64,000 nt of DNA from Meandrina meandrites. Lineage: Eukaryota; Cnidaria; Anthozoa; Scleractinia; Meandrinidae. A program made the position numbers and the translations under genes. Below the pieces are notes generated by a model. That model did not search any database. It was not told the DNA's origin and saw nothing but the letters and a program-made list of their open reading frames with translations. Location of the stretch: assembly GCA_963693305.1 (NCBI GenBank), contig OY855903.1, positions 23,938,755-24,002,754 on the forward strand. The letters run 5' to 3'. This document shows positions 1-39,974 of this stretch, piece by piece (the stretch's first letter is position 1; the number at the start of each line of letters is the position of its first letter).

Positions 1-2070
1 GCCTCAGTGTCAAATCAAACCGTCAGAATGACTCTTTTGCTTTGCTTTTTGCATATTATGGCGTTTGGAGTCCAACGCCGCTCATTAAGTCGTTTCGCGC
101 TCTTCGATTCGCTGACTACTACACAACCCGAAGATTATTTTCCGGATCGCACCAGAGCATCTCGGAGATGTGCCAAGTCGGAAACGAGAAGCGAACGACT
201 TTGAAAAAGTGAAATTTAGGCAATACGCTCTAATGGACATCTTCCGTAAGCGGAAATTGAGCACACCTCGCCAATGATGTTAATGTTTTGCCTTTAGAGA
301 GAAACACGCTTTTTCACACCAAAAACAGAACCAAATTAGGGGACTGAGCGGAGCACCAGGGGACTGAGCACCAGCCATTTTCCCGCGCTTTTCCCCCGGT
401 AACCAGTTACCAGGCCACTCAGTCGTATTTTTGCAACTGTTTCAAACAAAACGAAGAAAGCCTGCTGCAAACGGATTTTTCATCAAGGTAAAATTAACCT
501 TGTTTTATTTACCCTATTACTAGTTAAGAAGTGAACGCTTCGCCAGTGAAAAAGCGTGTTCCTTTTACTTAACTCGTCTGTAAGCTTACAGCAAATATGC
601 TGACTTATATAATTAATAAGCTTGTTCTCCAATGAGGAACAATGCGCCAAACTTGGTCAGACAAATTCTCAACGTTCAGCAAAAAATATTTCAACAGCGA
701 CAATTTATATATCTAGCTGTGGTCATTAAGCCTACTGTTTACAAACACTGATCGACATCACATCCTTTTTGCATGAATTCAAATACCGACTATTTAAGAA
801 CTCTTTGTTTTTAATAACAGCCCCTTGATTCAAGATGTAAGGTCCAAAAGCCACTGGATCTCTGGTTAATGCCGTAATATTGTCATACTGTATTTCATAC
901 TGGTGTGGGGGGGGGGGGGGGGGGGGGGGGGAGAGGCGGGGGTGCAAACCCAGGAGTAAATGGGTTGGGAACTCTATGGGAGGTGCCAGTGGGGAAGCAG
1001 GATTTTCAAGGTGGTGGGAACCGGGACAACTTGGGAATAACATTACAACATTGTGTAATATTTTGCAACAGGAATAGACAGAAAGATGCGGGGACTTGGA
1101 AATGGTTTGGGAAGTGGGTAGCTCACACCTTCCCTGCTGCTCCCTCTCCCCTCCCCCGAATTGTAATTATAACATTGTAGTTTGATAGTTTTTCTTTTTC
1201 TTGTTTCTTTCTTTGACATAAAACCCTGCAGGCCAAATGGTAACACAACTGGATGCAAGTAGTCCCAAGTTGAACTTGTGTACAGACTTCAACTTGCGAT
1301 TGAATTGAAAAATGGAGCCCACCATCTGGAAGAGCACCCAAACATTAGTAAGTTTACCAAATTTGAGAGTTATTGGTTATAACGCAAAGGCATGGTACAC
1401 TTTTCAAAACCGCTCAAATAAGAGAGCTTAGTATGGATTGGAGGGACAGTCCATACTAAGCAATCAATTTTAAATATTAGTACCCAGACCCCTGCTCGTT
1501 TAGAACATGGCCAATAATTCAGTACTTGAAGTCAACAACAAGACTTGCGTTGGGTGGCCAACGGAAAAAATAATTGCATTGACTTGCGTGCAAATTTGAT
1601 CTCGACCAAAGTTAAACGCAAGTCATCGCAAGTGCACGCATGTTGTGGCTAAACAGAGACGCAAGATGAAGTAGATGCAAGTTTAATTATAAACAAGATC
1701 CCATCAATCATTCATTAATGGTGCGATAAATGTACATGGATACAGTAAGAATATCAGTTAAAAAATAATATTCATTCCAGTAAATATGTTTGTAAATATT
1801 TTTTTGTAAAATTCACTAAAAAATTCAAAAGCAATGGATCCAGTAAAAGGCACTATTTAGGCCACATGAATGTGCTGTAAATCCCAATAATAGAAAATGC
1901 ATTTTGTATTTTTTTTAAAATTACAGAATTATTACAGGCATTTTGTAATTTTGACATAGAATGGGACCCATTTGCTTCCAATCAGCTGTTCATATTGTTA
2001 ATTTTCAGTGAAGTGTAATATTGCAATGTGTCTAATGCTTGCAAAGTGCGGCATTATTTACTGCAAATGT
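1..2070. other. 3' flank of the decarboxylase gene, no gene seen
   Basis: Holds a G run (907-931), a short perfect hairpin (GCTTAGTATGGA / TCCATACTAAGC, 1426-1461) and AT-rich sequence. ORFs here are short and lack coding character. Confidence 0.6.
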
Positions 2071-4325
2071 TCACTGCTCATCTGTCTTTTTAGGTTTTCT
2101 ACCTGCAAAATAATACGCAAAAGAAGTGACAAAATAATATGCTATTCTATGAGCTTCGTAGAATTGCTGACTGGGCTGGGGGTATAACTGGTCACAATTT
2201 AAACTGACTGCTTTATATTTGTACTTGGGTAAGGTAAAGGTTAGACTGCGAGCAGTCTCTCTTTTGCTGAGAAATTCGCTGTGGCTGGTGCCCCCGCTGT
2301 TTGCCGACCGCGGCTTCGCCGCTTACCGTTTGTCAATTTCTAGGCAAAAGAGAGACTGCTTGCAGTCTAGGTAAAGGTAAAGTCTGCATTCAAAATAAAC
2401 TGGCCTATCAGACCAGAGCTTATCCCAATTTCCCACAGCATAAAGCGACTAGGAGTATTTCTACTCCCCCTGGATGGAATTGCAGGGCTACCCCCAGCAT
2501 TAAATTTGCCAGTACTCATACACATGGGTGAGAAGAGGCACTTTGAGAGCAAAGTCCCGTGTCCAAGAACACAATACGATGACCCCAGCCAGTGCTTGAA
2601 CCTAGGTCTGGACCCCGAGTCCAGCACACTAACCAACTGTAATTGTGCTGTTAATTACTAGACAAAACACTTGTGAACTTAAAATGGACAAATGCTTACG
2701 GTACTTATTAATTAATCAAAATGAAGCTGATAAAACACAAACCTTTCCAAAATATTATAAGATCTTCAAGTGTCTCAGCTTCCTGAAAATAAGAAACAGT
2801 ATGTTGCATAGTAAGATACATACACCAACATATTAAGTGAAACAAGTAGAGGTTCTTCTGGAGCTTTTTTTTATTTTTTATTTTGCCTTGGTGCTTATAT
2901 TTAAATTCTGTGCTCAGAAATTAGCTAAAAAGAACTTTCATTTGGGTCTAGTAGCATATCAGGCTGGAGCTGATCCTGGTTACCATAGCATTAAGACACA
3001 AGGAGTATAAATTTCTCCCCCCCCCTCCCCCCCCCCTGCTGGTCAGTGGGATGCTAGTCCATCGGCAGGATTACCATGTGGAGAGATGCATTGTGAGAGT
3101 TAAGTGCCTTGCCCAAGAACAAAACACAGTGACCCTGGCCAGGACTCAAACCTGGACTGCTTAATCTGGAGTCCAGCAAGCTACCCATTATAAATGAGTA
3201 AGGAATTTTGCTATTCTCTGTGATGGGATGCTAGCATTTATACAGTCTGTACCTCTCTCAATACACCAGGAAATGGGTACCAGCAAAAAAGGGGAGAGAA
3301 TATTTGTATTTTTTCTCTCTATCTCCCTCTACTTTTTGTACCTGCCATGTTGGCTTGGGAGAAACAATCTCTAGAACCAAGGGTAAAGGGGAAGGGAGTA
3401 CTCAAGGGTAAAATGAATGAGAGACATACTAGTTCAATGTCGGGAAAACAATCTACTTTCATACCATGCACTCATAATAATAATTGTTATTTATACATAC
3501 TTTTAATACTTCAAAGTTTACTTTGCCGTCCCCTAGCAGTCGATAACCTACACCAAGAAAAATATCACTTAGCATCACATAGTTGCTGAAGTACATTCAG
3601 AACCAAAAACAGAAAAAACTAAACTGCAGAATACACAATCTAAAAACCCACCTATAACTGGGGGAGCTTGACGGCTACAATGTCGTGAAAATAAAGATAA
3701 AGAATTTGCACCACAGTCATGCAGAACTATGTAATCACCTCGTTCAACCTAGGGAATAACACATTTGTTACATTATTAGCTGCTTATTTCAGGGTTTGTC
3801 ATGTTGTATTGGGCAAACATTGCACTTAGAAGCTATATTTTTGTACTACAACCAGAGAGCAAATAGCACTTTACATTTGTACTTGGGAGGATCAAGGCAA
3901 AAGGAATGTGATTTTAACAACGGCCACACACATGCATTGTATGTACAAATATTTAATAATACTGTTATTACTCTTTGGTGACACCTTAAGTTTATTAATA
4001 ACTTACAACTGGAAGGAAAACATCCCGTTTGACTACATCTCCAGAAAAACACAAAGGTCCAGCAATGTTATAGCGCATTTCCTATGGACAGGATGCAGAA
4101 AAATAAGACACAACTTTATTAGGGACGCTAGAATATAATTTGTTCGCTGGGCTGGTTAAAGAATTATTTCATAGAATTGATGATAAATTTCTTCTCAAGT
4201 GCTGAACATGAAAAAGAAATTGGTTTGAGTTATTGCTATTAATGTATTAACTACCAATAGAAAACTAACAGGGCCCCCGTTGATACCAGTCCTGCGACTG
4301 AAGGGGTCACCCTGTTTAAATATCG

Positions 4326-4400
<75 letters not shown>

Positions 4401-7400
4401 AGTCTTCCATTATCAACCAGATCTTAATATAAATTGTTAAAATTCTCAAATTTTTTAATTTAAGGTTTTCCTTTGGACCATTTTAAAAATACATTGTTGT
4501 ATGCAAACAACCCTGCTTCTTATGAAATGTAATTTACCACTTTAACTATTTAAAAGATGTCCAGATTGTAACATTACCTCTCCTTCTTTTGGCTGTCCCT
4601 TACTGTCAAAAACTTGTACACGTCTCTTTGGAATGAAAGGACACAGTTTCAATGTCATATTTATAATAAGTTCCTTTCCGTCAAACAACAAATTAAATTC
4701 CAATAAAAATTCTCTACATCTTAAGTAGTATAAAGCTTCGATCGCACTTATGTAAAATTGCACAAAGACTGAATCAGCTTTTGAAACTTGCATTCTGTGA
4801 TATGTGAGTCATGGGCTCATCAGCTTGTTCAGCAATTCCATGCTTTTAAAGTTGTGTGACATCGAATGTCTAGATCTTCCTCCAATTAAAACTTCAGAGA
4901 AGTGAGAAAATGTCACCATTTTGTGACAGCCTCAAGTCACTGCACACTATGGCTGCTACTGTGTATAACAGCTTAGCCAATCAAGTTGTAGCATTTGCAT
5001 TATAACACTATACTTTTCTAGTAGTCCATTATCACTCACTCATAGCCTTTGGGTGCATCAATTTCTTTTTATTAAAACTGCATCTCAGATCAATTGAAAA
5101 ATTATTCCAGTTCAAACTTGGGTTATGCCTCCCTTTGTTCAACTTTGCACTAGGGTGGATCATTCTCTGGTTATACCTTTGTGTAATTAATGACCAATCT
5201 AAAACACTGTACAGTTCTCAATGAATGGTGTAAGGTGTACAAAGATCAATGTCTGTTTCTACAGGATATTACATAATGCAATACCTACTTGGTATTTGTT
5301 GACTTTAGGGCAGTAACATGTCCTCATCATCATATCCTTAATCAAACAAGTATAGTTCACATGGTTAATCTTTAAAATGACCTTTGCTTATCTATGTTGT
5401 GAGCAAACAAATTCAAGCCATCAGGTCACAAGGATTTTTTTTTAAAGCTTGATCATCTGAGGGTGGAAAAGAGTATTGATATACATTCAAACCCCTGAAC
5501 AGGATGCTAGTCCATTGTGAGTTCTCCCATCCCAACATTTTGTTTGGTGCCCATCCTTTATACCCCTTGCCAGGGTGGCGAGAGGGACTCTGATAAAACT
5601 CTGATAAAATTATACCAAAGCCTGTGAGGGCTCAAACTTGAATACTTTGATTAGAATCAAAGTCCAATGCACAAACCCTTACCCCACCAGCTACACAATT
5701 TCCAAAAATGATTTTCCATCTCAAAAAGATAAATTCACACCATTCTTGCATTCTCTGCCATATTGGAGGATCAAGAGAGCTCCCAAGGAAATCTGGGTAT
5801 GATAAATACATGTGGTATGGTGGACTATGGTGCAATTGAATCTGCCAATTTGGAGAATAAAATTTTCAGATGGAAATTAAAGTGGAAAACAGTGCAAAAA
5901 GTGTCAACCCTGATTTCCTCCTATGGTAAATTGCTTTTCCACTCTAATAAGCGTGATATGAGAAATGTCTCGAAACAATAGAAAAAGGTTACTAGGTGTT
6001 ACGGTTTACAGGTTTTAGCCCTTAATGACAGCCCTGGCTGCAATTACAAGTAAAAAAAAATTGATGTAAAATATTTACTAGCAAGACACTTTTCCAATTA
6101 CAACTTCTTGTAAGGGTCAATGGAGAACTTATTTTTTTTTAATTCTCAGCCAACTTGAAACAACAAAAGGTTACCAATATTCATGATTGACGAAAACGAA
6201 TGAACTTCTCCAAGTCAACTGCAGCAACTGTCCAAAATTGTTGTTAGTAGTAAAGGGGGTTCTTATAGACTCAATTTCCCATTTTTCCATTTGGTAAAGG
6301 AAATGTATGGGGAAAAAGTGGGACAAAAGTGGATGGATAATGAATTCAAGATGGCGACGGTAGATGGTCGGGAAATGAAAGTGTGAATGGTTGCAAGAGC
6401 GAAGAAATGAGAAACAATAGTACATTATTGTGTAAATGTTTTTTATTGTGAACAAATGTGTTAATTGACTATGAGCTATTGTAAATGGTTTCTCTATATA
6501 TATTACTCTGTTGCCCATTGGTTTAGATCATTCAAGCAGACTGTCGATCACAAGCGCCGCTTGGTAGTTATTGTAAAGCACACAATAATGTTTTTCACTC
6601 TTCCGTCGATAATTTATCAAATCATTATTGTACAAATGAGTGTGAATGGATGCAAAAGCGAAAAAATGTGAAACAATAATACATTATTGTGCAAATGTTT
6701 TTATTGACTAGCTGAGTACATCATCGTAAAGGTCTAGTATTGAAATAGAAGTACATTAAAAAAAAACTGTCGGATACCCAGAGTAAATTTACTTATGTGC
6801 TTTTTTGATCGAAAGATTTATCTCTAGCACATTTTCCACAAATAGAGAAACCATTGTTAAAGGCTTCCTCTCGGTCTAATCCGAAGTCATGAATTGATGC
6901 GTATTCATTGTCTCGGATAACTTTGTTCAAACAGTTAGGATTTATGCACTTATCGTTCCACCCCCTTCCAGTAAAAAATTTGGATATGAACAATGTGTAA
7001 TGCTCTCGTTTCTTGGAGCAATCGAACTTAGCTATTCTTCCGATACCTTCACACAACATTTTACGGCCTTTGGTAGTAACGGAGTAAAAATGACTTCTAT
7101 TTTCCACGACGCTGTGATTGCTAGTAAATTCTTGCCCCTCGATCATAACTATGTCATTTTCAACGAGATATTTAATCATGCTAGCGGCATATTCTGTGCT
7201 CAACATATACGGATTTCTAGAATACCCGTCACTTATTCTATTGTAAGGATGTGTACATAGTTTTAACGTTTTGCCTTGAAAATGTTCCGAAGGCTTGTAA
7301 CTTCTCTTCAGGAGCTCAATGACTTGAGGGAATCTTGTTTCCATAAATGCGAGGGTGAGCCTTGCGTGGGGGGCTACATGGATGCTTTGTCGTACCAGTA

Positions 7401-10400
7401 CAACTTCTACGGTCTGCTCATCAAGACTATCCAGCTTTAAATACGGGTTGTATCTTATAGCAAATTTTCCCCAATCCACGAGTCTGGCTTGCATGTCTAT
7501 TGGCGTGTAACTGGGAGGGAAGCACGTGTCTTCTACCATCAGATACTTGGAGATGTTATATGAAGCAGGTACCAAAATGTCACCTCCCCACCAAAACACA
7601 TCTGGATGTTGAGTTTCAGTTAGCTTTAAAGATCAACTTTTGATTGACATCTATAACTTATGATTTAACCGAAAACTTTTTGGAAAAATGCAATAATTTA
7701 TTCGGCAGTATGCTGCTGAGAGCTTTTGATTCATCCAACATACTCCCACTTTGATTGACAGTGTTAACCTTTTGATTTATCCGACAGCAACTGTTGATTG
7801 TCATCCTTAACTTGTGATCTATCCGACGACGTTTTGAACAAAACCTATAATTTATTCGGCAGTATGCTGTTGAAAGCTTTTGATTTATCGGCCGGGCATG
7901 CCCTCATTTTGATTGACAGTTTTCAAGCGTTTGATTTATCCGACGGCCTTACGTGCTCAAAGACTGTGGCGCGCATTCTTAAGAACATATTTGAGAAAAC
8001 ACTTTCGGTTGGTTTATTATCGAAGTAGTCGTGGCTGCTCCATCTATCAGTTCACAAGGCACACAAACGTACCAAAGTTCACCCATGGCGTTTGTAGTTA
8101 ACACAATTTCCCCAGTAGTGGAACAAGTACAGACTGCAAATGTTGAAACTGAAGAGGAAAAGATGGATCGAATGTGGTTAGATTTACTGATGTGACAATG
8201 AAGTGATCAAGGCTAACGTTTTGGCACATCTTGGTCGCGTGATGGGTGAGCCTAAGAAGAGTTACGAGGGGTTTCGCGAAATATGCATCAATATCCGCCA
8301 AGCACCGTTAACAGTAGTTCTTCCCGGGTTTGCAAAGTGTAGTACAAGTTTCCAAACTGAATGTGTAACTGAGAAATCAAAGGAGAGAAGAGAAGAGCTG
8401 AGCAGAGCAGAGCAGAGCAGAGCTGTGCAGAGGTGGGCATAGGTGAGCAGAGCAGAACAGAACAGAGCAGAACAGAGCAGAGCAGAGCAGAGCTGAGCAG
8501 ACCAGAGCAGACCAGAGCAGACCAGAGCAGACCAGAGTAGGAGAGAAAAGAAGAGCTGAGCAGAGCTGTGCAGAGGTGAGCATAGCTGAGCAGAGCAGAT
8601 CAGATCAGAGCAGAGCAGATCAGATCAGATCAGAGCAGAGCAGAGCTGAGCTGAGCTGAGCAGAGCAGAGCAGAGCAGAGCAGAGCGCGTTGACGAATGC
8701 GGCATTGTTGCAGCTCAGCGGGCAGCCTTTATGGCTAATCGTGTCTTTCAACTTACTTTCACTGCTTTATGCGATGAACTTATTCAACAAAAAAGGTTAG
8801 GTTTAAACGGCTGTTAATCATCCGAGCCAAACGTAGCAGTCCAGCTTGATTATGGATCAGGAAGAGCCGTGGTTCCGTTGGAGAATATATGTTGACCTTG
8901 CGCATGTTATGACAGTTGCAGAAAGTGTTTGTAGCACTAGCTCTTGGATTTTACCTTGGTGAGTGGCAAGGCTACATCACTTAATTGTCCAAACTATCCT
9001 GGACTACCATCTGTCTGGCATCTCTAGAACTCAAGAACTCTGGGAGCATCATAGAGGTAGAGGACATCCAGGATCGCGCTATCTTTGCCATTTATCACGG
9101 TCCCAATGGGCAATAACGGGATGAGTTCAGTGATTTGCAAAGTGCAAGTTAAGGCAGCCATGAGCTGAGGGACACTGAACTGTCAAACGAATATAAAAAG
9201 GAAGAAGAAAGAAATGTAAAACTTAGCATGGACCTTGATTTTGTCATAAATGAGATACAAAACAATTTTCGCTTTTAACCAGTGGACCGACTACTTGTAG
9301 AACTTCGCCGCCGCGGCATCAGACAAACAGACCGTCAAGCATAAACGGTAATTTGTTAATATTCAGGAACGTCTCTTGATAAAGTTGTGACAGGGATCTT
9401 TATTTAGTTATTTTAAGAAAATTGTGCATTCAGGAAGTGCAAAGCGTTTATTACAGCTATAATGCGTCAATAAATGTTATTTTGTGTTTGATGCATGTAT
9501 TTGTGTCATAGCAGCGTATTGTTATGACGGATGGATGGTTTGAATTAAAAGTGTTTGTGATTTTTAAGAATGTAGTTTTAGCGCTGGTTTCAGTCATTGG
9601 AGCATGAATACGATCGACCTGTGATCGACCCAACTCAATGCCTTTCATTCGGAGTAGCATTTGAATAGAACGAGTATATATCTTATTTTGTAAACTCGAA
9701 GCAGTTTGATGACCGTTATCTGCGTATAACGAGTAACGTTTAGTTACCCAGAGTTTCAAAATGAACTTTATTTGAGTTGTTGAATAACTTTAAATTAATT
9801 AGAATGATATTTTGCTTAGCTTCCTTGTATAGTTGATAGTAAAATAGTGGCAAATCAGGCACATGGTATGCAAAGCTTTTCGACTACACTACACTGTCCA
9901 AGAACATAATTTGCGTATCCTAGTGATGTTCCGGTAACAGGTTTTCCGTGTTGAACTCAGTTTAACGCTTCTTTTGTTAGCACAAACATTACACTAAGTT
10001 TAATTAAGCATTGTTTTGTTTTTGCAAATATTTTATTTTACGTACATTGTTATTGCTGGAGAATTTTTTTCCTGATCTATTCGTATGTTAATGTGTCGGT
10101 TATTCCATATACAAACGGTTTTACGTTTCAGTTGCTCGATAAAAGTTTACTTTCGCTGTTCAACTTCAAAGCGTCTATTGATACCTTCCAAAAGTTCTTT
10201 GAAAGAGCCAAAATGGTTTTACTTTTAATTTGGTTCGGGTACGGTAACATTTAAGCGGTTCTCGATATTACAAAACATCTACAGATTTTCTATTAGTCTA
10301 CAACAAAAGTCATTTAATTTCGCGCTTGCATGACAAAACAAGGGACTAAAACAAAGGACTTTTCAGCACAAAAACTATTAAACCAGCGTGTTCTGATTGT

Positions 10401-13400
10401 CAATTCATCACAAGTATGTGCTTGTAGGGTTTGTCATGCACTCAAATATGCATTGAAAATAAATTTTGACAACTACAACTGTGTACTTTATGTATAAGCA
10501 TGTTAGTTGAATATTGTTTCACGCCTTTTCAGTTCGCCTTCATATTCGTTATTCGCCTGGCACTGATTGCATGCCTTGAACTTAATAGGGTTTTCAATTT
10601 TCGCAAAGCTTTCATTCTGTATTTCATAAATCAGTGATATCATATAATCGCAGCAACGTAATGAGAGAAACTCTGTCAAATCTGCCGATTCCATTTGCTC
10701 TTCTTACCTCTGCTCAGCTCTTCTCTTCTCTGCTCTGCACAGGTAATACAACTCTTTCCAACGTTGTGCGTTTTGTCTTAAGTCGTCGATCTGACGTTCT
10801 AACTCAATTTTTGTATTCAATTTTGCACTGCAATCCTTACACAATACTCTCGTCTTTCCATCTTGTTTTTCCTCTGTACAGTCGTTGCACATCATTTCCT
10901 TTTTTATCGCCAAATACGTCAGTTTAAACTCTTCGCACTTCTTTTTCCAATGCTTTGCTGTTTTTTCAGCATCTTCAAGTTTGGCTGTTGTTTCGCGTAG
11001 CTCTTTTACTAAGTTTCAAATAACTTCGCCCATGCTCTTCTGGAAAAAAAATGTAAGGTCACGTGGCAAGATAGAGTGGCTGCGTAATTTCGATGCTCCT
11101 GCACCCAAGATGACTATACACCCTTTAGTAATGTCTGTCGATGTCTACATATTTAATTCAAAAGCAAAAATGTTTCCTTCTGGAAAACACACAGTCCTTA
11201 TATACCTCTTGTTTTACACTGAGAGGATACTCCATAAAGTATTTGCACGATTTCTTTTGATTATTAATCTACTCTGCATTGCTCTGCCAATATTGCTTTG
11301 TGCTACTCGTCTGCCTTCTGCTTCGCTCTACCCTGCTGCTCTGCTTGTCATGCTATACCATGCTGTTTGGCTCGGCTCGCCCAGTTCGCTTTCGCTCGGC
11401 TTAAGTCATTTGGCACATTTAGCATCCTAAATTAATGCTGAATTCTGAACCCCAAGACGAAACTACACTCAGAAGGTTATCACACACAGTTTGATGTTTT
11501 TTTAAATACAAAGAATAACAAAATTATTGAAACAGTCCCGTAGTACAGTAGCCGGCCAGCTAAATAGTATCCCTAATGTTAACTCTTAGTTGTAAAATGT
11601 TTCGCGGTTTTTATCTAATCTGACACATTACAGCTGGGGAAGCTCGTTGTTTACTTGTTTGGCCTTTTCCTAACTTATGCACCTGTTTTCGTCCTCTAGA
11701 CTCGTTTGGTTGAGTATTAATGGATTTCGTGATATTTTCTCTTTCTTCCATGATAAAGAATTTCGTCGTTGTCATTTTTAGTTAAAGTTTGTTTAGAAAA
11801 GTCGTCGTGTTCAATCAGTTTGTTCAATAAATATTTACGTTTATTGATTGCTGCTTCTGCAGCCTCTACGAAGTCCATTTTGTCGTCGTCCATAAAACTA
11901 CGCAGCGTTGTCATAACCTTTTTGTGCACTGGATCAGTTTTAAGAACATGATACCACTTTAAATAGCGCAAATACAAGAATCGTAGCCTCTTTCTGTATG
12001 CGGGAAGTAGTAGAGTTGATGTTTGAAACTCAGCATCCTCTTTCGACAAGCCCTGTGTTACGTATTGTTCTACTTGATCTTCCCAGCATGAACTCAAATC
12101 AATTATGGCTTCCTCGCGCAGCTTATCCCAGGGATCAATATCATCATTTTCATCATCAGTAGTAGTGATTTCATTATCGTCATCACTATGATCTTCATCT
12201 TCGTTGTTTTCGCTTTCATCGTCAGTATCCTCGTCATCATATTCTTCGTCCTGTTCTTCTTCGTCCTGGCTAAGGTTGTCTTCATATTCTTCACCAGGCT
12301 TTCCTTGAACAACCGTAGCCGGAGAGCCCTCACTCATTGCGTATTCACTATCCATCTCCACTTGTTGTTGCTCTAGACGTTTGTGGCAACCTTGCTTCTC
12401 GTGCCGGTCTCTGTTATATCTTCGACTAAATGATCTTTGACAGAACTGACAAAGATGCCCCATGTGTTCTAAGATGTTTACTCGACAATTGGTTCTCTTC
12501 AAATGAGTAAAGTAATATCCCTTGCCTATTAATATAGTCGAGTCACTCAATGGCAGTTATGTTTCGTAAGCTTATTGTGAGTTACTGGCAGGATGTTTAT
12601 TTTTTGCATCTTTTTTTTTTGCACACCGATTATCTTTTTTTTACAATACTCAAACGGTATTGACAGTGCTTTGAGTAACTTTTTTTTCCTTTTTTGTTGA
12701 AGATGTATATGGATTTGTCTAAATGATAAGGTGATCTTATTTCTTTTCAAACACTCGTTTCTTGCTGCAAACCCCGCTCAAAGTTCAGGGACGTAGCGAG
12801 CATATACGCACGTACGTACGTGTGTACCTGCAGAAATCTAAAAAATGATAGTTTTGCAATGGAACCCGGGGGGGGGGGGGGGGTACTCCCATAAATTTCG
12901 GATAGGGGTGTGCCGCGAAGGTTCTTAAACCCTGACCCTATTTAAGGATAAAGAAAACGAAAATTGATACCCTTTTTAAGGCTCAAACCCGAAAAATGAC
13001 ACCCTATTCAAGGAGAGGAGAAGCGATGGGTGACGATCCAAATAACGGCTAACTTCACACGGCAAAACACAAATCTTTACAAAATCGCTTTGCTACTAGT
13101 TGAACGGATAGTTTGGCATTTATTTTAGCTGATAGAATTTAGGTACCCTATCTAAGGATAACAGCGGGAACACAATGCCAAAAGGAGCAAAAATGATACC
13201 CTATTTAAGGACCGAGAACCTCAAAAATCATACCCTATCCCGCGGCACATACCTATATAGCCCATATATGGGAGTACCCCCCCCCCCCCCCCCCCGGGCA
13301 ATGGAATCGGCAGCTTTGACAGAGTTCTCTCATTACGTTGCTGCGATTATATGATCACTGATTTATGAAATACAGAATGAAAGCTTTGCAAAAATTCGAA

Positions 13401-16400
13401 GAAGAACAGGACGAAGAATATGATGACGAGGATACTGACGATGAAAGCGAAAACAACGAAGATGAAGAACATAGTGATGACGATAATGAAATCACTACTA
13501 CTGATGATGAAAATGATGATATTGATCCCTGGGATAAGCTGCGCGAGGAAGCCATAATTGATTTGAGTTCATGCTGGGAAGATCAAGTAGAACAATACGT
13601 AACACAGGGCTTGTCGAAAGAGGATGCTGAGTTTCAAACATCAACTCTACTACTTCCCGCATACAGAAAGAGGCTACGATTCTTGTATTTGCGCTATTTA
13701 AAGTGGTATCATGTTCTTAAAACTGATCCAGTGCACAAAAAGGTTATGACAATGCTGCGTAGTTTTATGGACGACGACGAAATGGACTTCGTAGAGGCTG
13801 CAGAAGCAGCAATCAATAAACGTAAATATTTATTGAACAAACTGATTGAACACGACGACTTTTCTAAACAAACTTTAACTAAAAATGACAACGACGAAAT
13901 TCTTTATCATGGAAGAAAGAGAAAATATCACGAAATCCATTAATACTCAACCAAACGAGTCTAGAGGACGAAAACAGGTGCATAAGTTAGGAAAAGGCCA
14001 AACAAGTAAACAACGAGCTTCCCCAGCTGTAATGTGTCAGATTAGATAAAAACCGCGAAACATTTTACAACTAAGAGTTAACATTAGGGATACTATTTAG
14101 CTGGCCGGCTACTGTACTACGGGACTGTTTCAATAATTTTGTTATTCTTTGTATTTAAAAAAACATCAAACTGTGTGTGATAACCTTCTGAGTGTAGTTT
14201 CGTCTTGGGGTTCAGAATTCAGCATTAATTTAGGATGCTAAATGTGCCAAATGACTTAAGCCGAGCGAAAGCGAACTGGGCGAGCCGAGCCAAACAGCAT
14301 GGTATAGCATGACAAGCAGAGCAGCAGGGTAGAGCGAAGCAGAAGGCAGACGAGTAGCACAAAGCAATATTGGCAGAGCAATGCAGAGTAGATTAATAAT
14401 CAAAAGAAATCGTGCAAATACTTTATGGAGTATCCTCTCAGTGTAAAACAAGAGGTATATAAGGACGGTGTGTTTTCCAGAAGGAAACATTTTTGCTTTT
14501 GAATTAAATATGTAGACATCGACAGACATTACTAAAGGGTGTATAGTCATCTTGGGTGCAGGAGCATCGAAATTACGCAGCCACTCTATCTTGCCACGTG
14601 ACCTTACATTTTTTTTCCAGAAGAGCATGGGCGAAGTTATTTGAAACTTAGTAAAAGAGCTACGCGAAACAACAGCCAAACTTGAAGATGCTGAAAAAAC
14701 AGCAAAGCATTGGAAAAAGAAGTGCGAAGAGTTTAAACAGACGTATTTGGCGATAAAAAAGGAAATGATGTGCAACGACTGTACAGAGGAAAAACAAGAT
14801 GGAAAGACGAGAGTATTGTGTAAGGATTGCAGTGCAAAATTGAATACAAAAATTGAGTTAGAACGTCAGATCGACGACTTAAGACAAAACGCACAACGTT
14901 GGAAAGAGTTGTATTACCTGTGCAGAGCAGAGAAGAGAAGAGCTGAGCAGAGGTAAGAAGAGCAAATGGAATCGGCAGATTTGACAGAGTTTCTCTCTTT
15001 CATTACGTTGCTGCGATTATATGATATCACTGATTTATGAAATACAGAATGAAAGCTTTGCGAAAATTGAAAACCCTATTAAGTTCAAGGCATGCAATCA
15101 GTGCCAGGCGAATAACGAATATGAAGGCGAACTGAAAAGGCGTGAAACAATATTCAACTAACATGCTTATACATAAAGTACACAGTTGTAGTTGTCAAAA
15201 TTTATTTTCAATGTATATTTGAGTGCATGACAAACCCTACAAGCACATACTTGTGATGAATTGACAATCAGAACACGCTGGTTTAATAGTTTTTGTGCTG
15301 AAAAGTCCTTTGTTTTAGTCCCTTGTTTTGTCATGCAAGCGCGAAATTAAATGACTTTTGTTGTAGACTAATAGAAAATCTGTAGATGTTTTGTAATATC
15401 GAGAACCGCTTAAATGTTACCGTACCCGAACCAAATTAAAAGTAAAACCATTTTGGCTCTTTCAAAGAACTTTTGGAAGGTATCAATAGACGCTTTGAAG
15501 TTGAACAGCGAAAGTAAACTTTTATCGAGCAACTGAAACGTAAAACCGTTTGTATATGGAATAACCGACACATTAACATACGAATAGATCAGGAAAAAAA
15601 TTCTCCAGCAATAACAATGTACGTAAAATAAAATATTTGCAAAAACAAAACAATGCTTAATTAAACTTAGTGTAATGTTTGTGCTAACAAAAGAAGCGTT
15701 AAACTGAGTTCAACACGGAAAACCTGTTACCGGAACATCACTAGGATACGCAAATTATGTTCTTGGGCAGTGTAGTGTAGTCGAAAAGCTTTGCATACCA
15801 TGTGCCTGATTTGCCACTATTTTACTATCAACTATACAAGGAAGCTAAGCAAAATATCATTCTAATTAATTTAAAGTTATTCAACAACTCAAATAAAGTT
15901 CATTTTGAAACTCTGGGTAACTAAACGTTACTCGTTATACGCAGATAACGGTCATCAAACTGCTTCGAGTTTACAAAATAAGATATATACTCGTTCTATT
16001 CAAATGCTACTCCGAATGAAAGGCATTGAGTTGGGTCGATCACAGGTCGATCGTATTCATGCTCCAATGACTGAAACCAGCGCTAAAACTACATTCTTAA
16101 AAATCACAAACACTTTTAATTCAAACCATCCATCCGTCATAACAATACGCTGCTATGACACAAATACATGCATCAAACACAAAATAACATTTATTGACGC
16201 ATTATAGCTGTAATAAACGCTTTGCACTTCCTGAATGCACAATTTTCTTAAAATAACTAAATAAAGATCCCTGTCACAACTTTATCAAGAGACGTTCCTG
16301 AATATTAACAAATTACCGTTTATGCTTGACGGTCTGTTTGTCTGATGCCGCGGCGGCGAAGTTCTACAAGTAGTCGGTCCACTGGTTAAAAGCGAAAATT

Positions 16401-19400
16401 GTTTTGTATCTCATTTATGACAAAATCAAGGTCCATGCTAAGTTTTACATTTCTTTCTTCTTCCTTTTTATATTCGTTTGACAGTTCAGTGTCCCTCAGC
16501 TCATGGCTGCCTTAACTTGCACTTTGCAAATCACTGAACTCATCCCGTTATTGCCCATTGGGACCGTGATAAATGGCAAAGATAGCGCGATCCTGGATGT
16601 CCTCTACCTCTATGATGCTCCCAGAGTTCTTGAGTTCTAGAGATGCCAGACAGATGGTAGTCCAGGATAGTTTGGACAATTAAGTGATGTAGCCTTGCCA
16701 CTCACCAAGGTAAAATCCAAGAGCTAGTGCTACAAACACTTTCTGCAACTGTCATAACATGCGCAAGGTCAACATATATTCTCCAACGGAACCACGGCTC
16801 TTCCTGATCCATAATCAAGCTGGACTGCTACGTTTGGCTCGGATGATTAACAGCCGTTTAAACCTAACCTTTTTTGTTGAATAAGTTCATCGCATAAAGC
16901 AGTGAAAGTAAGTTGAAAGACACGATTAGCCATAAAGGCTGCCCGCTGAGCTGCAACAATGCCGCATTCGTCAACGCGCTCTGCTCTGCTCTGCTCTGCT
17001 CTGCTCAGCTCAGCTCAGCTCTGCTCTGCTCTGATCTGATCTGATCTGCTCTGCTCTGATCTGATCTGCTCTGCTCAGCTATGCTCACCTCTGCACAGCT
17101 CTGCTCAGCTCTTCTTTTCTCTCCTACTCTGGTCTGCTCTGGTCTGCTCTGGTCTGCTCTGGTCTGCTCTGGTCTGCTCAGCTCTGCTCTGCTCTGCTCT
17201 GTTCTGCTCTGTTCTGTTCTGCTCTGCTCACCTATGCCCACCTCTGCACAGCTCTGCTCTGCTCTGCTCTGCTCAGCTCTTCTCTTCTCTCCTTTGATTT
17301 CTCAGTTACACATTCAGTTTGGAAACTTGTACTACACTTTGCAAACCCGGGAAGAACTACTGTTAACGGTGCTTGGCGGATATTGATGCATATTTCGCGA
17401 AACCCCTCGTAACTCTTCTTAGGCTCACCCATCACGCGACCAAGATGTGCCAAAACGTTAGCCTTGATCACTTCATTGTCACATCAGTAAATCTAACCAC
17501 ATTCGATCCATCTTTTCCTCTTCAGTTTCAACATTTGCAGTCTGTACTTGTTCCACTACTGGGGAAATTGTGTTAACTACAAATGCCATGGGTGAACTTT
17601 GGTACGTTTGTGTGCCTTGTGAACTGATAGATGGAGCAGCCACGACTACTTCGATAATAAACCAACCGAAAGTGTTTTCTCAAATATGTTCTTAAGAATG
17701 CGCGCCACAGTCTTTGAGCACGTAAGGCCGTCGGATAAATCAAACGCTTGAAAACTGTCAATCAAAATGAGGGCATGCCCGGCCGATAAATCAAAAGCTT
17801 TCAACAGCATACTGCCGAATAAATTATAGGTTTTGTTCAAAACGTCGTCGGATAAATCACAAGTTAAGGATGACAATCAACAGTTGCTGTCGGATAAATC
17901 AAAAGGTTAACACTGTCAATCAAAGTGGGAGTATGTTGGATGAATCAAAAGCTCTCAGCAGCATACTGCCGAATAAATTATTGCATTTTTCCAAAAAGTT
18001 TTCGGTTAAATCATAAGTTATAGATGTCAATCAAAAGTTGATCTTTAAAGCTAACTGAAACTCAACATCCAGATGTGTTTTGGTGGGGAGGTGACATTTT
18101 GGTACCTGCTTCATATAACATCTCCAAGTATCTGATGGTAGAAGACACGTGCTTCCCTCCCAGTTACACGCCAATAGACATGCAAGCCAGACTCGTGGAT
18201 TGGGGAAAATTTGCTATAAGATACAACCCGTATTTAAAGCTGGATAGTCTTGATGAGCAGACCGTAGAAGTTGTACTGGTACGACAAAGCATCCATGTAG
18301 CCCCCCACGCAAGGCTCACCCTCGCATTTATGGAAACAAGATTCCCTCAAGTCATTGAGCTCCTGAAGAGAAGTTACAAGCCTTCGGAACATTTTCAAGG
18401 CAAAACGTTAAAACTATGTACACATCCTTACAATAGAATAAGTGACGGGTATTCTAGAAATCCGTATATGTTGAGCACAGAATATGCCGCTAGCATGATT
18501 AAATATCTCGTTGAAAATGACATAGTTATGATCGAGGGGCAAGAATTTACTAGCAATCACAGCGTCGTGGAAAATAGAAGTCATTTTTACTCCGTTACTA
18601 CCAAAGGCCATAAAATGTTGTGTGAAGGTATCGGAAGAATAGCTAAGTTCGATTGCTCCAAGAAACGAGAGCATTACACATTGTTCATATCCAAATTTTT
18701 TACTGGAAGGGGGTGGAACGATAAGTGCATAAATCCTAACTGTTTGAACAAAGTTATCCGAGACAATGAATACGCATCAATTCATGACTTCGGATTAGAC
18801 CGAGAGGAAGCCTTTAACAATGGTTTCTCTATTTGTGGAAAATGTGCTAGAGATAAATCTTTCGATCAAAAAAGCACATAAGTAAATTTACTCTGGGTAT
18901 CCGACAGTTTTTTTTTAATGTACTTCTATTTCAATACTAGACCTTTACGATGATGTACTCAGCTAGTCAATAAAAACATTTGCACAATAATGTATTATTG
19001 TTTCACATTTTTTCGCTTTTGCATCCATTCACACTCATTTGTACAATAATGATTTGATAAATTATCGACGGAAGAGTGAAAAACATTATTGTGTGCTTTA
19101 CAATAACTACCAAGCGGCGCTTGTGATCGACAGTCTGCTTGAATGATCTAAACCAATGGGCAACAGAGTAATATATATAGAGAAACCATTTACAATAGCT
19201 CATAGTCAATTAACACATTTGTTCACAATAAAAAACATTTACACAATAATGTACTATTGTTTCTCATTTCTTCGCTCTTGCAACCATTCACACTTTCATT
19301 TCCCGACCATCTACCGTCGCCATCTTGAATTCATTATCCATCCACTTTTGTCCCACTTTTTCCCCATACATTTCCTTTACCAAATGGAAAAATGGGAAAT

Positions 19401-22400
19401 TGAGTCTATAAGAACCCCCTTTACTACTGTTGTTTTGAAGACAACTTGGAGTGTATAATGAAAAGAAGTATAAGTTGCCTCTAAATGTATCCAGTCATAT
19501 TGTCATTATCTGATTATAGTAGTTGGAATATTTTTTTCACAGACAATAACTTACAGCTCCAATATGTATGAGAACTATTCTAAGGTCATCTGATACCACT
19601 TTCGTGTATTCCACTCTGCTGGCGAGCCAACCAGCCTGTAAGAAAATGTTGAAAAAAGGCCTCAATCATTCATTGGAAACTAAACCCCTAACTAGGAGGT
19701 TTGCCATGTTTACTTTTGGGTCAATAGTGAAAACACTATGTTAGTATCAGCTAAAAAGGTATGTCATAGCTTTCATCTGACAGTTTTACAGTATTCTACG
19801 AGCGGGCCAACTTAAATTACCGGTATATGTCTTTGCACCATATTTGAAAACAGGTATTAAATCAATATTCTCTACAGTAACTGTCTGAGCGTTAATTCAC
19901 TTTCACAAATCATAGCACTGGCATGAACATCCAAGTGTTGAATTGTGTCAAAGTTTGAGTAATGTCTTTTAATTTCAAGAATGGAAAACTTGGAATTAGA
20001 TCAATGATGAAATAAAATTCTCACCAGTGAATTAATGTAAACATTTTTATTTTAAAACTTCCCAGGCCAATCAGTTCTCTGAGTCTATAATAAAGTGTGT
20101 TTGGCTGCGAATTGCCAGGATGCAAATGGTTGCAGCTTGAAAACAATGGGTTGTCTTTTTCAAGTTTTATCTTTGTTTTGTGGAAAAATCACCAATAACT
20201 GACTATGGCTTGTTCTTCCTTTGAGCAAACCAGTAGATTTCCTTTTCTTGACTTTCTGGGAGTATTCTGTGTACATGAAAAAGCATTTCATTTTGAACAT
20301 CTTTAGCACATTTTCACCCCAAAACGTAAAATCCCAGTGACATTGCCCATTTAAACACAGACTTCAGTACCACCAACTTCTTGGACTCAAAGTTCTTGAA
20401 CCAATTTTTGTTTCCCTTGGCATTTCTACTATACATGCTAAACTGACTGAATCTGGACAATAACAGAGATGTATCAGTCACTTTGCAAGCCTGTACCTTT
20501 GCATTGTAAGCTTGGCCAAACTCAGTTATGACTTTTTTGAATACTCCAAAGCTGGGAAACAATTCCGGAACTTTTTTCTAATAGAAAAGAAAAGAATAAA
20601 AACACCTTTAGCAATTACAATGTTACCAACAAAAATTTAAGATGGATCTTTTATCTATCAGTTTGCTAAATCGAAGAAACAATCTGGAACCATAACTCTT
20701 CAGGTCCCTAAATATTATAAACACCCTTAAACAATAGTTTAAGGGTTTAAACAATAGTTTAAGGGTGTTTCTGTTGCAGAACTTTCAGGTGATTGTTGCC
20801 TCACGGAAATATTTGATTTCTTAAAGTGCTACTATGATCAAATTCGCATATTTTCTTTTGTAGCCGTTTTAAAATATTAACAAGTACTCTTCGTGGGAAG
20901 AAAAATAATGCCATTTACTGTTCTCCAATATCTCTTTTCTTTCCAGAGATATTCAAGTTTTTAAAATATGCAAATTAGCAAAGTAATGACGTCATATACT
21001 CAACCGAATTCTGATTAAATACGAAGAAAGTGATATCTCAGCCAATTTGTATTGAAAGTCTCTGATTCTTTGCAGTAACACTCTGCTAGTAGTGTTTTAC
21101 AACATGAACTTTACACCTTGGTTACCATGGCAACATACTAGGTTCCAGATCCCCCCCATGCTAAAGGCTTTTCTGGCCAATTCTGGCATTCTTTTTTAAT
21201 ATTTGTAAATAATGTTTTTAATGCAAGATCTGGCAAGCATATCAATGGATTTGGCAGACGTCTTGCCTGGGTTTAATTTTTCCGAACTGAAAAATTCTAA
21301 AATATTAAAAACAAATTGATGGGGACTGGAAAAGAATGACTTGCCATGGTAACATAATTTTATTACAGGTATAGGTGTGTCATCTGTGGAACTATTAGTC
21401 TGCCAAGTTTCAATGGTCTCTGCAGAAAAATGACCGAGATAACTTTTTTTTTGTACTTGACAAAAAATTGGGTTGAGTAGATGACGTCAGCAGTCCCCTA
21501 ATTTGCATATTTTACGATTTTTTTTAAGCTAAAATATCTCCGAAACTAAAATAGATATCTGAAAATGGAAAACGGCATTTTGAATCTCTTGTTAAATAGT
21601 CTTTGAAACGCCTAAAATTTCAAGGGGTGAAAATTTGATCATAGTAGCACTTTAAAACAAATATTAGCCCAAGAAGCAAATATTCTAGTTTTTTAGGACA
21701 TCAAACTTCCAAGGGAACTATCACACCGATATTTCTGAAACAAAAAATGCTCTATCATCTTTCTTGTTCAGCACTAAATTTTCTTTCATGTGTCTAAAAA
21801 GCAAGCATGTGTCACAAAAACAAGCATGTTGAATTACTTTTAACTTTTTATGATGAAAGACTTGAAAGCCATTTGAAATGTATTACAAATGCAACAAAAC
21901 CAGACAGGAAACCCACTAAAAGCAAATCAATCAAATACTTACTGGTATTCATGCATATTGTTCTATTTGCCTGTAGGCTCACATGACATGTTTACAAAAA
22001 ATTTTACGATGAGTACTATCCATCCTGGTTTTTTCCTTGCCGGATGGGCAGTATGGGCTGATAGTGTCTCTCTGCAGATGAACACTATCACGTCACGTGA
22101 TCAATTTAAACCAATCAAAATCCAAGAAAATTTAGTGACCTATAATAATTGATAGTAGTTGCAGATTGTGCAGTTGCCAATAGTCAGCCATTGGGTTATG
22201 CTAATTACACTGTACATTTAATATTGCACATGGTTCATTCAAATAGAAAAATGCTTACTTTGAGATCTTGAGCATAGTCGTGAAATGTTGGTCTAAAGGT
22301 ATCATCCTCTCTGTTTACCTATAAAATATTGAAAGCCAGACCTTTGATGTGACATGTACTGATGGACAGAAATGTTGTAAATGTTCTGACTATTATAATA

Positions 22401-25400: not shown

Positions 25401-28400
25401 CTCGCACTTCTCAAGTGTTCTTAAAAATTCCCAAGTGCTTATATAACTCAACAATGCACGAGGACAAGTTCTTTATTTCTTTTATAAAATGTTAAAGAAA
25501 TTGCGCGCGCAAAACTTGTGACGTAAGCAGCGTGCATTATAACTCCATAAAGCACGCGCGTGACGTAAGCAGCGTTCTTTATGGAACTATAATGAACTCG
25601 AACTGGCCAATCACAGCGCGTGCAATTTCTCGATGATTTTATTATAACTTATAATGTATCTAATTACCTGAGACCCAACATGTATCATGACTGCTGTTAA
25701 CCAAGGTCGATTAATATACCAGCTGATTATTTCTTCTCTTGTTGAATCTGTTAGCTAATCAAAAAACACTTTTTTTAAAAAAGACAAAGATTGGTTGATT
25801 GATTTCTAATACTAAGCTGTCTGAGCACAGTTCAAAATTGAAACCACTTTAATTTTAATGTTTTATAGTAACGTACCATATTTATTTGATTGAGCACTGT
25901 GGCACTCTTTAAGGTGATTCCTCAGTATTGCATTGTGCATTTCTACTGCCCAGAATAAGTATGCGCACATGAACAAAATGGCTTTTTTCTATACGGCTCA
26001 GCTCACATGAGAGACAAATTGTTGTTTTCCCGTTAACAAGCATGGTGACCTATATTTTTTATTGCATAATTTTGGTGTAAAAATTGTCCTCTTTCAGTTT
26101 GACCGGAGGGGAAACAAGATATATGCTGAATGTAAAATGACTCGAGGATGCAAATTATGACCTCGAAAACAGCGACTTGAGGAACGTTTTGATCCGATCT
26201 TCTTTGGATTTGTGTGATTTTTCCCATAAGTTATATAAAACATTGTTCCTTGAGCTATTGAGTTTTTCTTAAGTATCACTTTAATAAACTTTGCGTCCGG
26301 CTACCTCAAAACTGAAAAACATTTTATCCACAAGAATAAATTTCTGAGGCTGGTTTAGACTGAGTTGTATTGTACTTGCTTTTTCAGTTTAACTCCTCAC
26401 ACAACTAAATATACTGGTAGGCTGACAATGCTTTGAATAAGTGCCACATTTTTGAGGCTGGCACCCATAAATATTTTTGCTCTTATATTCGGCACTCATT
26501 TGGGGAAGGCACTTAATCAAGTGAATATGGTACTTTAATGTTTAACAATAAAAAACTGAATTAATGCTGTCTCAAATAATGTTGTACATCATATACATGT
26601 TCATACACTTACTTGGACTCCAAACTTTGAATCAGGGGTACATACACTGTAAGTAAGAATTAAACAGCCAAAACATTAAAACAGTTTGATGAAGTTACAC
26701 TCTGCGGTCTGATGAAATACCAACTCTATTAGTAAACAATTTACAGTCCAGAGGCTGTTCTCTATTTGATATACTGTGTGCCATGTAGTTCAGATTTATA
26801 ATAACAATATAATATTGCAACTACTGCATACATGTAATTCATGAAAGAAAATAAACAAGAATGAAACCAACAGGGAAATTTTTTTCATCACAGAACTCAT
26901 GCATGTCTGTTTGCTTTTATATACACTGTACCTGTAAATCTGATACAGTATATTCACGTATGGCAACGCATTTTGTATTCATATGATTTTATGAATAAAA
27001 TAAATAAATTAAAATAAAAAATACAATAAATTAATTAAAAATTATAATTTAAAATTACAACATAACTTAATTTCAGCTAGTTCACAGGATAATTTTACAT
27101 GTAATTATTGAATGTGAGTTATTTGTGTTTTGTATTTTGTCCAAAAGTATATAATTTCTTACTGATACATGTGGTATAATTCTCACCTCAAAGCTTGAAT
27201 GTCACCAACCCCAATAATAGGATTCAATCTGATGCCAACTGTTGACTTTCTATGCCTGTATATGTGATGTGTATCAGAGAGGATTAAGGCCTACGTTAGT
27301 AAAGTTTATAATTATAATAACTTAAATTATTACTGTTGCTAGGGAAGGTCAGGATTTGAAAATAATATTGAGTATTTTGTCCATAGCTCTGTGAATCATC
27401 CCAATTTTTTGGATACTCCCAAAAATCCCTGGTAAAATCGATCTATCTCCCATCCTCCCCCCTCTGACAACCCTCCTAGTTTATTTTTTTCAAGTTTGGT
27501 CACCAGTGAAAAATTTTAGTCGCTAAATTAAGCTCACGCTTTCAATTCTCCTTCTCAGTTTTAGTTGCCAGACTGGCGACTTTGGTTGCAATTTAGTCGC
27601 CAGCTCAAAAATTTTAGTCGCCATGGCAACTAAAATGGTCTTCACTTGGAGGGTTGTCTGACAAACTAAATTCCTAAAGTCAACCTAAAATAAAAAAACT
27701 TTTTTTGTACTTCCCCATCACCATTATATCATAAAATAATCTGGAGTACCCCCACAACTGGGGCATATGTTAAACTATGAAGATCACATTTTTTCTATGC
27801 ATGCATCTTTACAGTGAGACTACTTGAACCTGGCCACTTGGAAGGGAATGACAATAATTGCAATTAATAATTAATTATTCATTTTGTTCTCAAGAACAGG
27901 ATCTGCAGAAAAATATACAGCATAGAGTAGTCGATTAACAAAATTATGTACTAAGTAAACAGACCTTTATGTGCATTCACTTAGTTTCATATTTTACACT
28001 GCAGTTGCATGTGTCTGGATTATTTTACACGGTAGAACCCCTATTTAGCTGCACTGTCGCTACAAGATTCCATTTAGCCATGGGTGAGGCCCTGCCAGGG
28101 TAAATTCCGACAAATGACATGGGCCAAAAAGTAGCGACAGCGCTCAAACGAAATAGCGACAAACGACTGACGAAGACAAATGTATGTCGGTAAATTTCCG
28201 ACAGTGTTGTGCAGCCTTGACAAAATGCCGACACAAGACATTTTAAAATTCCGACAAGCGACCTGGGACACCCCCCTGGCAGGGCCTCATGGGTCTGTAA
28301 ATATGGTAAGTACATGCATACATGTATGGTAAGTGACACACTTGGCTTCTGCCTCGTGTACCACGTTTTTGTTCTTACCACGTTTTGACATTGTCTGCGA

Positions 28401-38938: not shown

Positions 38939-39150
38939 AAGGCCCTGCCAGGGGGGTGTCCCAGGTCGCTTGTCGGAATTTTAAAATGTCTCGTGTCGGC
39001 GTTTTGTCAAGGCTACACAACGCTGTCGGAAATTTAGCGACATACATTCTGTACATTTGGCTTCGTCAGTCGTTTGTCGCTATTTCGTTTGAGCGCTGTC
39101 GCTACTTTTTGGCCCATGTCGCTTGTCGGAATTTACCCTGGCAGGGCCTC
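38939..39150. mobile_element. GAGGCCCTGCCAGGG MITE, copy 2, 6-bp TSD
   Basis: Same element in opposite orientation to copy 1, flanked by ATTTGT (38933-38938, 39151-39156). The first base of the left terminus is A instead of G. Confidence 0.85.
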
Positions 39151-39974
39151 ATTTGTCGGCTTTAATTGCGGCCCGATCGTGACTCATTCGTGGAGGCCAA
39201 TTCACATGTCGGCCTGTTTCTTTGTTTTGCCGTTATCGCAGAAAAATCGGCCCAAATTTTAAAATTTGTTGCACTGCAACAAAGAATTTTTTAAATCGGA
39301 GAGATTTCCATCACGAACTCATTTCATTTACTTGGCCGACAAATAGGAGCTGGTGTAAAATCGCATTTTTTTTGTCAATAATATTTGACCAAATCGGATG
39401 GCCTTTAAACATGGCTTTAAATGAATAGACAATTAAATTTCCACTACCAAAGTTCGCACTATACCTTATGTCCTGTTTGCTAAATCTGATGAATTCTTAC
39501 TATTTCCAACACAAATTAAGGTACTCTGTCTCCTAAGTACGCTTTGACTGGAGCAAAAATTTCTAGAATTTGTCACGCGAGCGCCAAACAAAGAGATTCA
39601 CTGTTCTATTCAGTTGTCATGCGATCGAAAATTTCTAGAATTTCATCACGCGAGCGTAAAATAACAAAGTTTAAACCTTTTTTCTAGTTCAAAAATGTTT
39701 TAAAAATTAAAGCCGCAGTGAAAGTTTCCAATGTTCTCTTCTTTGACAAAGAAGGTTCTTCTCCGTAAAAGAAATTTCCCCTTTGTGTCACTTTGAGAGA
39801 AAATGAGAGGTTCGGTATCATTCTATATTATTATTTTTACTGTCAATAACATTGAAACCACGACAGCTTACACTTACTTTTGTGACGAAGTGATAAATTC
39901 CTCCGGGGGAGGGGGGCGAGACGGTTACCCCTTATAGTGTTTCCCTTATGGGTTTCTCGTTCTACTAAAATTAA

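Follow-up and report, generated by a model that had tools for sequence, protein, structure and literature searches.

Large palindromes with Polinton-type ends are inserted, concertedly evolving units in the genome of the coral Meandrina meandrites

The genome of the scleractinian coral Meandrina meandrites contains large palindromes that are inserted units, bounded by the terminal sequences and 6-bp target-site duplications of Polinton (Maverick) transposons. The two arms of these palindromes evolve in concert: changes come to be present in both. One of the palindromes lies in the stretch of 64,000 nucleotides analysed here (GenBank assembly GCA_963693305.1, contig OY855903.1, positions 23,938,755 to 24,002,754 of the forward strand), which we call the window, and its relatives were sought in the 551-Mb assembly, whose 56 contigs include that of the window (C1). 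Very probably, these elements form a family of non-autonomous transposons derived from Polintons, in which the transposing unit is a large palindrome carrying the integrase-distal end of a Polinton twice, head to head. An earlier note on the window had described a 13,183-bp unit with AG...CT ends, a GTTGTT duplication, arms of ~6 kb and a loop of ~1.1 kb, all of which the sequence bears out.

The palindrome as an inserted unit

The two arms of the window element (Table 1) are 99-100% complementary, and the inverted match between them ends exactly at both termini, which read AGTAGTAAAGGGGG on the left and CCCCCTTTACTACT on the right. Throughout, arm coordinates are counted from window position 6246. 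When the 199-bp terminus was used as a query (32 of 32 candidates scored), at least 31 copies of at least 190 bp were found at 17 loci, namely the window and E1-E16. Both ends are present at 14 of these (the window and E1-E13), and all 14 are flanked by perfect 6-bp target duplications that differ in sequence between loci, as do the 20-bp flanks.

Twelve of the 14 two-ended loci are palindromic and measure 8.6-13.2 kb (window, E1-E9, E11 and E12), E4 being a degraded palindrome with shorter arms. The architecture of the window element therefore recurs at 11 further loci with other 6-bp duplications and, among them, several different centres. The two exceptions are E10, a palindrome interrupted by Polinton-type cargo, and E13, a 37-kb Polinton, which is non-palindromic, as is E14. 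The other two loci are E15, a partial palindrome close to a contig start, and E16, a single arm with an inverted piece. That the window element is a lone accident is refuted by the further palindromic loci and by the presence of its terminus at 17 loci. A separate feature of E12 (C3:30871615-30884496) is a ~59-bp subterminal tandem repeat in the first 0.6 kb of each arm, the copy number of which is unequal between the arms.

Shared centres and arms that change together

Several insertions have the same centre, and hence the palindrome is copied as a palindrome. The 60 bases across the loop-arm junction (30 bp on either side) are identical in the window element, E1 and E2, and differ by at most one base among E6, E7 and E9. 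With its nested repeat removed, the window loop is the loop of E3 and E5 at 97-99% identity. All five elements have in common a compound centre, in which arm position 6619 is followed by an inverted scar (4450 to ~4351) and then by position 6018; E3 and E5 have additionally lost 5978-5390 from the short arm. In E15, position 6619 is joined to 4450 and the sequence then runs straight on. Simple centres, written as long arm|short arm, are found in E6, E7 and E9 (6391|5989), E12 (6088|5978), E11 (6472|5222) and E8 (6395|6262), the long arm of the latter ending as in E6, E7 and E9 but being joined to 6262 instead of 5989. Inheritance of the centre is thus combined with occasional remodelling. A genome search for the repeat nested in the window loop gave 2,192 first-look candidates, of which 40 were scored.

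The arms of 11 palindromes (window, E1-E3, E5-E9, E11 and E12) were aligned; E4, E10, E15 and E16 were left out. Left and right arms diverge by 0.07-0.49% within an element, whereas divergence between elements reaches 7.3% and amounts to 5-6% between the arms of window/E1/E2 and those of E3/E5. The two arms of an element are sisters with a bootstrap value of 100 in eight of the 11 elements and 93 in E1; the window element and E2 are unresolved in this respect. In the comparison of window/E1/E2 with E3/E5, the two groups are fixed for different bases, in both arms of every element, at 168 of 3,708 columns, and no column separates left from right arms. Nor is the same left-right difference found in two elements at any of 5,165 columns in window/E1/E2, 5,793 in E6-E9 or 2,767 in all 11 elements (gap-free column sets drawn from overlapping comparisons). 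Among E6, E7 and E9, 62 sites carry a change that is present in both arms of a single element or pair. As groups with a common centre carry such lockstep changes, mutual correction of the arms must have taken place since the palindrome came into being. Divergence within a palindrome is lower than that between copies and lineage-specific changes lie in both arms, which is the mark of a concertedly evolving palindrome.

The older copy E9 suggests where some of this correction takes place. Its changes seen in one arm only lie mostly at arm positions up to 1500 (20 of 23), and those seen in both arms mostly beyond (24 of 27; Fisher test 6.6e-8 with the cut placed post hoc, rank test without a cut 7.5e-6). 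This clustering suggests that the inner arms, unlike the outer part, kept converting in the chromosome after insertion. A one-time defective derivative, as the element had been taken to be in the earlier note, is at odds with 12 palindromic loci, with identical centres in separate insertions and with arms that have stayed matched through 5-6% divergence.

Polinton relatives and coding content

The link to Polintons comes from E13, in which 36,980 bp lie between the same termini as those of the palindromes. It contains a 385-aa frame without stops that has an rve integrase core (4e-10), as well as pieces of PolB (6e-22) whose frames are interrupted by stops; a capsid gene was not recognised in it. 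Since the termini of the palindromes bound an element with these genes, the Polinton affiliation proposed in the earlier note, which had pointed to the ends and the 6-bp duplications, holds. E13 thus has an intact integrase frame, PolB in pieces and, like the palindromes, a 6-bp target duplication. Identity to the arm is 98.1% at its left end (arm 1-377), and at its right end 98.2% over arm 378-1081 and 95.9% over the outer 193 bp. Both palindrome arms match the same, integrase-distal end of E13, in agreement with the proposal that one element end was kept twice; in the window element this end is duplicated around a loop, as in a snap-back genome, the match to E13 covering the outer 0.9-1.1 kb. 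Among the scored matches (107 of 1,747 candidates), the E13 integrase stands alone, the next being 34-44% identical.

Two further loci carry Polinton-like sequence. E14 has inner stretches in common with E13 (86-99%) and lacks a 6-kb segment that holds PolB in the latter. No duplication was seen flanking this segment in E13, and hence it looks native to that element. In E10 (26 kb), one palindrome arm is interrupted by Polinton-type genes, among them an rve integrase (6e-6, below the Pfam cut-off) and an A32-like ATPase (1e-7). This cargo, at about C5:17679735-17697166, also has a 912-aa frame with weak polymerase and endonuclease matches and begins with a 204-bp palindrome, AGTAGTAATGTCGG...CCGACATTACTACT. 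Frames of at least 100 aa from most of the fetched pieces of E10, E13, E14 and E16 (without the last one of E10) matched arm and loop only at arm-derived sequence, with the exception of a 28-residue match (2e-4), and PDB searches with one E10 frame and one E13 frame returned nothing informative. Genome-wide, there are at least 107 matches to Polinton-type integrase (1,747 first-look candidates) and at least 148 to PolB (1,193), most candidates being unscored, and some of the PolB matches lie in frames of more than 1,000 aa. Such copies are possible helpers in trans.

No integrase, PolB, ATPase, capsid or packaging frame was recognised among the scanned frames of arm and loop. To this extent the claimed loss of the core genes is supported, but not all genes are gone: of the 12 copies that have at least 100 aa of the frame for a C2H2/acidic protein, 10 keep this frame intact. 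The frame is truncated with stops in E12 and E15, and a 74-residue piece is present in E10. The coral proteins that match it are named from Oculina, Montipora and Acropora. Intactness of this frame was considered as proof of selection and rejected, as a neutral simulation gives 0.11-0.31 for the absence of stops in four lineages. Together with dN/dS values that spread, where defined, from 0.13 to 1.33, the simulation leaves constraint on the predicted protein only suggested. The C2H2/acidic frame, which starts in the loop, and the 279-aa frame both point outward from the centre of the palindrome. The latter is of full length without a stop only in the six arms of the window element, E1 and E2, and is elsewhere interrupted by stops or found in pieces; that it encodes a winged-helix protein is a guess. 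Pfam profile searches of the arm proteins were uninformative, as were PHROGs and PDB searches for the 279-aa frame, and IMG/VR scans with two arm proteins confirmed no relative.

Table 1. Features of the window element (window positions)
Feature	Position	Strand	Remarks
Whole palindromic element	6246..19428	none	13,183 bp; ends (AGT)2...(ACT)2
Left target-site duplication	6240..6245		6 bp, GTTGTT
Right target-site duplication	19429..19434		6 bp, GTTGTT
Left arm	6246..12263	+	6,018 bp
Right arm	13397..19428	-	Inverted copy of left arm; 10 substitutions in 6,018 aligned sites
Loop, single copy	12264..13396		1,133 bp; centre same as in E1 and E2
Nested short repeat in loop, resembling a miniature inverted-repeat transposable element	~12865..13298		~434 bp; 8-bp duplication CAATGGAA; shared with E1 and E2
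Scar, inverted copy of arm 4450 to 4351	13299..13396	-	Also in E1, E2, E3 and E5; in E15 opens a longer copy
5-bp tandem array (AGAGC)n, left arm	8384..8686	+	Mirrored at 16978-17290
279-aa frame, left arm	6793..7632	-	Pfam winged-helix match, E 0.033, below cut-off
103-aa frame in arm	10704..11015	-	Only sub-cut-off zinc-ribbon-type Pfam matches
248-aa C2H2/acidic-protein frame, arm and loop	11720..12463	-	Homologues in other coral records
Truncated second copy of C2H2/acidic frame, mostly right arm	13386..13943	+	

Sequences related to the inner arms occur outside the terminus family. About a dozen loci, which we call group 2, are 75-85% identical in nucleotide sequence to inner-arm parts (40 of 46 candidates scored). 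At one of them (C9:7420999-7431035, ~10 kb), the ends read AGTAGTATCCC, the terminal repeat is ~928 bp long and the duplication is TTTATA. As this copy holds two inner arm segments in a relative orientation opposite to that in the palindromes, group 2 is a relative with terminal inverted repeats and is not shown to be palindromic. Its status as a second palindromic clade was rejected, since the segment occurs once per locus in most cases (a pair is present on C11) and the terminal repeat of the C9 copy is ~0.93 kb long.

A second family contains relatives of the C2H2 protein at 35-41% amino-acid identity. A 601-bp piece beside one of these relatives is found at no fewer than 28 loci (40 of 160 candidates scored); at 12 of the 28 it forms inward-facing pairs within 15 kb, and pairs of other orientation were absent from the same set. 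The full piece is present on both sides at C9:8569040-8578738, C4:32511988-32517539, C14:12539302-12549533 and C13:17751843-17757651, and is partial on at least one side at the other eight. Some copies have long matching inverted arms, others shorter, ordinary-looking terminal repeats, so that palindromic and ordinary forms may coexist in this family and palindrome formation may be recurrent.

Two other features of the window lie outside the element. Positions 28085-28287 and 38940-39151 are a ~0.2-kb inverted repeat, 95-97% complementary, 10.7 kb apart and edged by GGCCCTGCCAGG, which looks like the two ends of another transposon. Positions 59626-63675 hold an open frame of 1,349 aa with tandem repeats of 40 residues (a 120-bp array at 59641-62199), which we take to be TPR-like with a CHAT-like C-terminus.

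Origin of the palindrome and known systems

In the mechanism that we propose, Polinton enzymes would act in trans on the palindrome ends: an integrase like that of E13 and a protein-primed PolB, for which the (AGT)2 ends would be suited. Palindromic copies would be replicated and integrated whole. Pairing of the arms within one molecule, as a cruciform, a hairpin or a displaced single strand, would let the arms correct each other, partly in the chromosome, as in E9, and partly perhaps through a hairpin of the displaced strand during replication. The same pairing could also yield central deletions and arm extension and so remodel the centre repeatedly. Judged from genomic sequence, the palindrome appears to be a stable, dispersed and concertedly evolving form of a non-autonomous Polinton derivative. 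A bolder version, which we consider rather unlikely, is that of self-perpetuating palindromic Polinton satellites in which the folded single strand belongs to the normal cycle, the information of only one arm is passed on per round and the architecture has had more than one origin in this genome.

A number of observations weigh against the interpretation as a palindromic Polinton derivative mobilised in trans. Only the best candidates of each genome search were scored, so the counts are lower bounds. The PolB frames of E13 are broken, and its match to the arms is confined to the outer 0.9-1.1 kb. The right end of E13 diverges by 1.9% from the window element, 2.5% from E8, 6.9% from E3 and 7.9% from E5; as it falls within the diversity of the palindromes, E13 is a relative or recombinant rather than a proven parent. 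The source of arm 1,100-6,400 is not shown, parts of it being found in group 2 in the other relative orientation. A few sites belong to no simple class (three strays and one with more than two letters in E6/E7/E9, one in window/E1/E2). Clustering of the E9 type was tested in four related copies and was not seen in E7 (p 0.07) or E8 (p 0.46), and in E6 the tendency was the reverse (p 0.025). For most copies, homogenisation before insertion is inseparable from homogenisation after it. Finally, transposition or replication of the family has not been observed.

Palindromes are a known class of artefact in long-read assemblies, and a fold-over of unsplit reads would produce one. We regard this explanation as highly improbable here, since the repeat ends exactly at the element termini, duplications are perfect at 14 of 14 loci, the arms carry private substitutions and the same centre is found at loci with different flanks. 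In the window, no inverted match was found between the two 1-kb flanks, and with unmirrored flanks and arms that differ at 10 of 6,018 sites the structure is not a mechanical fold-over. The likeness of the arms might instead reflect youth, each palindrome having been newly made from its own single-copy parent just before insertion. The small left-right differences would fit this, but it is improbable given that one centre is found in three insertions (window, E1, E2), another in three (E6, E7, E9) and the compound centre in five, that the 62 and 168 lineage-specific changes described above lie in both arms and that no single-copy parent was seen among the 17 loci.

How the first palindrome arose is a different matter. 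The snap-back formation put forward in the earlier note, to which we give not quite an even chance, holds that the displaced strand of one Polinton end folded back during protein-primed replication and copied itself, and that the palindrome formed in this one step then propagated. In most centres (E6/E7/E9, E8, E12 and E11) the longer arm simply runs on, uncopied, as the loop, and such centres equal the symmetric and asymmetric snap-back genomes of adeno-associated virus (AAV; PMC8235507). Ends of this type are also said to make jumping-back possible during protein-primed replication (PMC8097293). The centres are compatible with folding as well as with repeat extension, but that of the window lineage is compound, with the inverted scar 4450-4351 preceding a second jump to 6018, and is no simple fold; furthermore, no single-copy element with a whole arm was present among the 17 loci or the scored inner-arm matches (40 of 46 candidates). 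Extension of inverted repeats, a substantial possibility that we nonetheless place below even, explains the first palindrome about as well, and snap-back formation is to that extent unproven. A break near a terminal repeat would have been repaired from the other end of the element, with more and more of the interior being copied (TIR1-F1-F1-TIR2 in the proposal for Galileo, TIR being a terminal inverted repeat), until the far end was replaced, and central deletions would then have trimmed the loop. Three centres of one lineage (E15; window/E1/E2; E3/E5) resemble arm extension followed by central deletion, E8 and E6/E7/E9 have the long-arm end but not the short-arm end in common, and Galileo offers a precedent for repeats extended by recruitment of inner sequence (PMC3573991). 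On the other hand, E15 can also be explained by a deletion between scar and arm, so that the order of the centre events is not fixed, and no element that keeps its original far end in the loop was found among the 17 loci.

If the interpretation as a palindromic Polinton derivative is correct, these elements seem to be a heritable form of the snap-back genome of a virus-related transposon, dispersed, gene-keeping and with arms that remain alike. Two questions thereby become testable in genome data, namely whether protein-primed elements pass through a hairpin and by what means palindromes, which tend to be unstable, are maintained in the chromosomes of animals. The family also calls for caution in annotation, as an inverted repeat of 6 kb need not be an assembly error but may have been inserted as a unit. 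No palindromic class of Polintons is described in the titles and abstract beginnings of the open-literature matches listed, most subscription papers being outside this scope. PMC3573991 mentions a reported expansion of Polinton inverted repeats (its reference 12), and repeat growth as such may therefore be on record already.

The palindromes resemble Polintons in their (AGT)2...(ACT)2 ends, present in the window element and E1-E13 as in vertebrate Mavericks (PMC8097293), in their 6-bp target-site duplications and in having terminal inverted repeats, but these are 4.3-6.6 kb long in the 11 aligned palindromes. Intact Mavericks measure 12.7-24.6 kb, with terminal repeats of 46-1,447 bp (PMC8097293). 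The palindromes, at 8.6-13.2 kb, differ further in that no integrase, PolB, ATPase or capsid frame was recognised in them. As PolB and the rve integrase were not recognised in the palindrome and are both present in E13, we class the former as a non-autonomous derivative and not as a Polinton proper. Assignment to Galileo/Foldback elements is not indicated, given the 6-bp duplications and the rve integrase of E13; no search for a P-type transposase was made. Transposons of the P superfamily make target duplications of 7-8 bp. Galileo, a member of that superfamily with repeats of ~0.3-1.2 kb, is similar in that its copies consist almost only of inverted repeats, which are extended by recruitment of inner sequence (PMC3573991), but the palindromes described here have Polinton-type ends, 6-bp duplications and arms of 4-6 kb.

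Like the coral palindromes, the snap-back genomes of AAV consist of two head-to-head copies of one genome end, which may or may not be separated by a loop (PMC8235507). They are described as subgenomic by-products in a virus population, whereas the coral palindrome is integrated and inherited together with its centre. Snap-back genomes are also known from adenovirus and linear plasmids. Lastly, the palindromes of sex chromosomes are kept alike by gene conversion (PMC7023750), and in both cases the arms evolve in concert; those palindromes are structures of the chromosome itself, whereas the palindrome described here is dispersed as an insertion.

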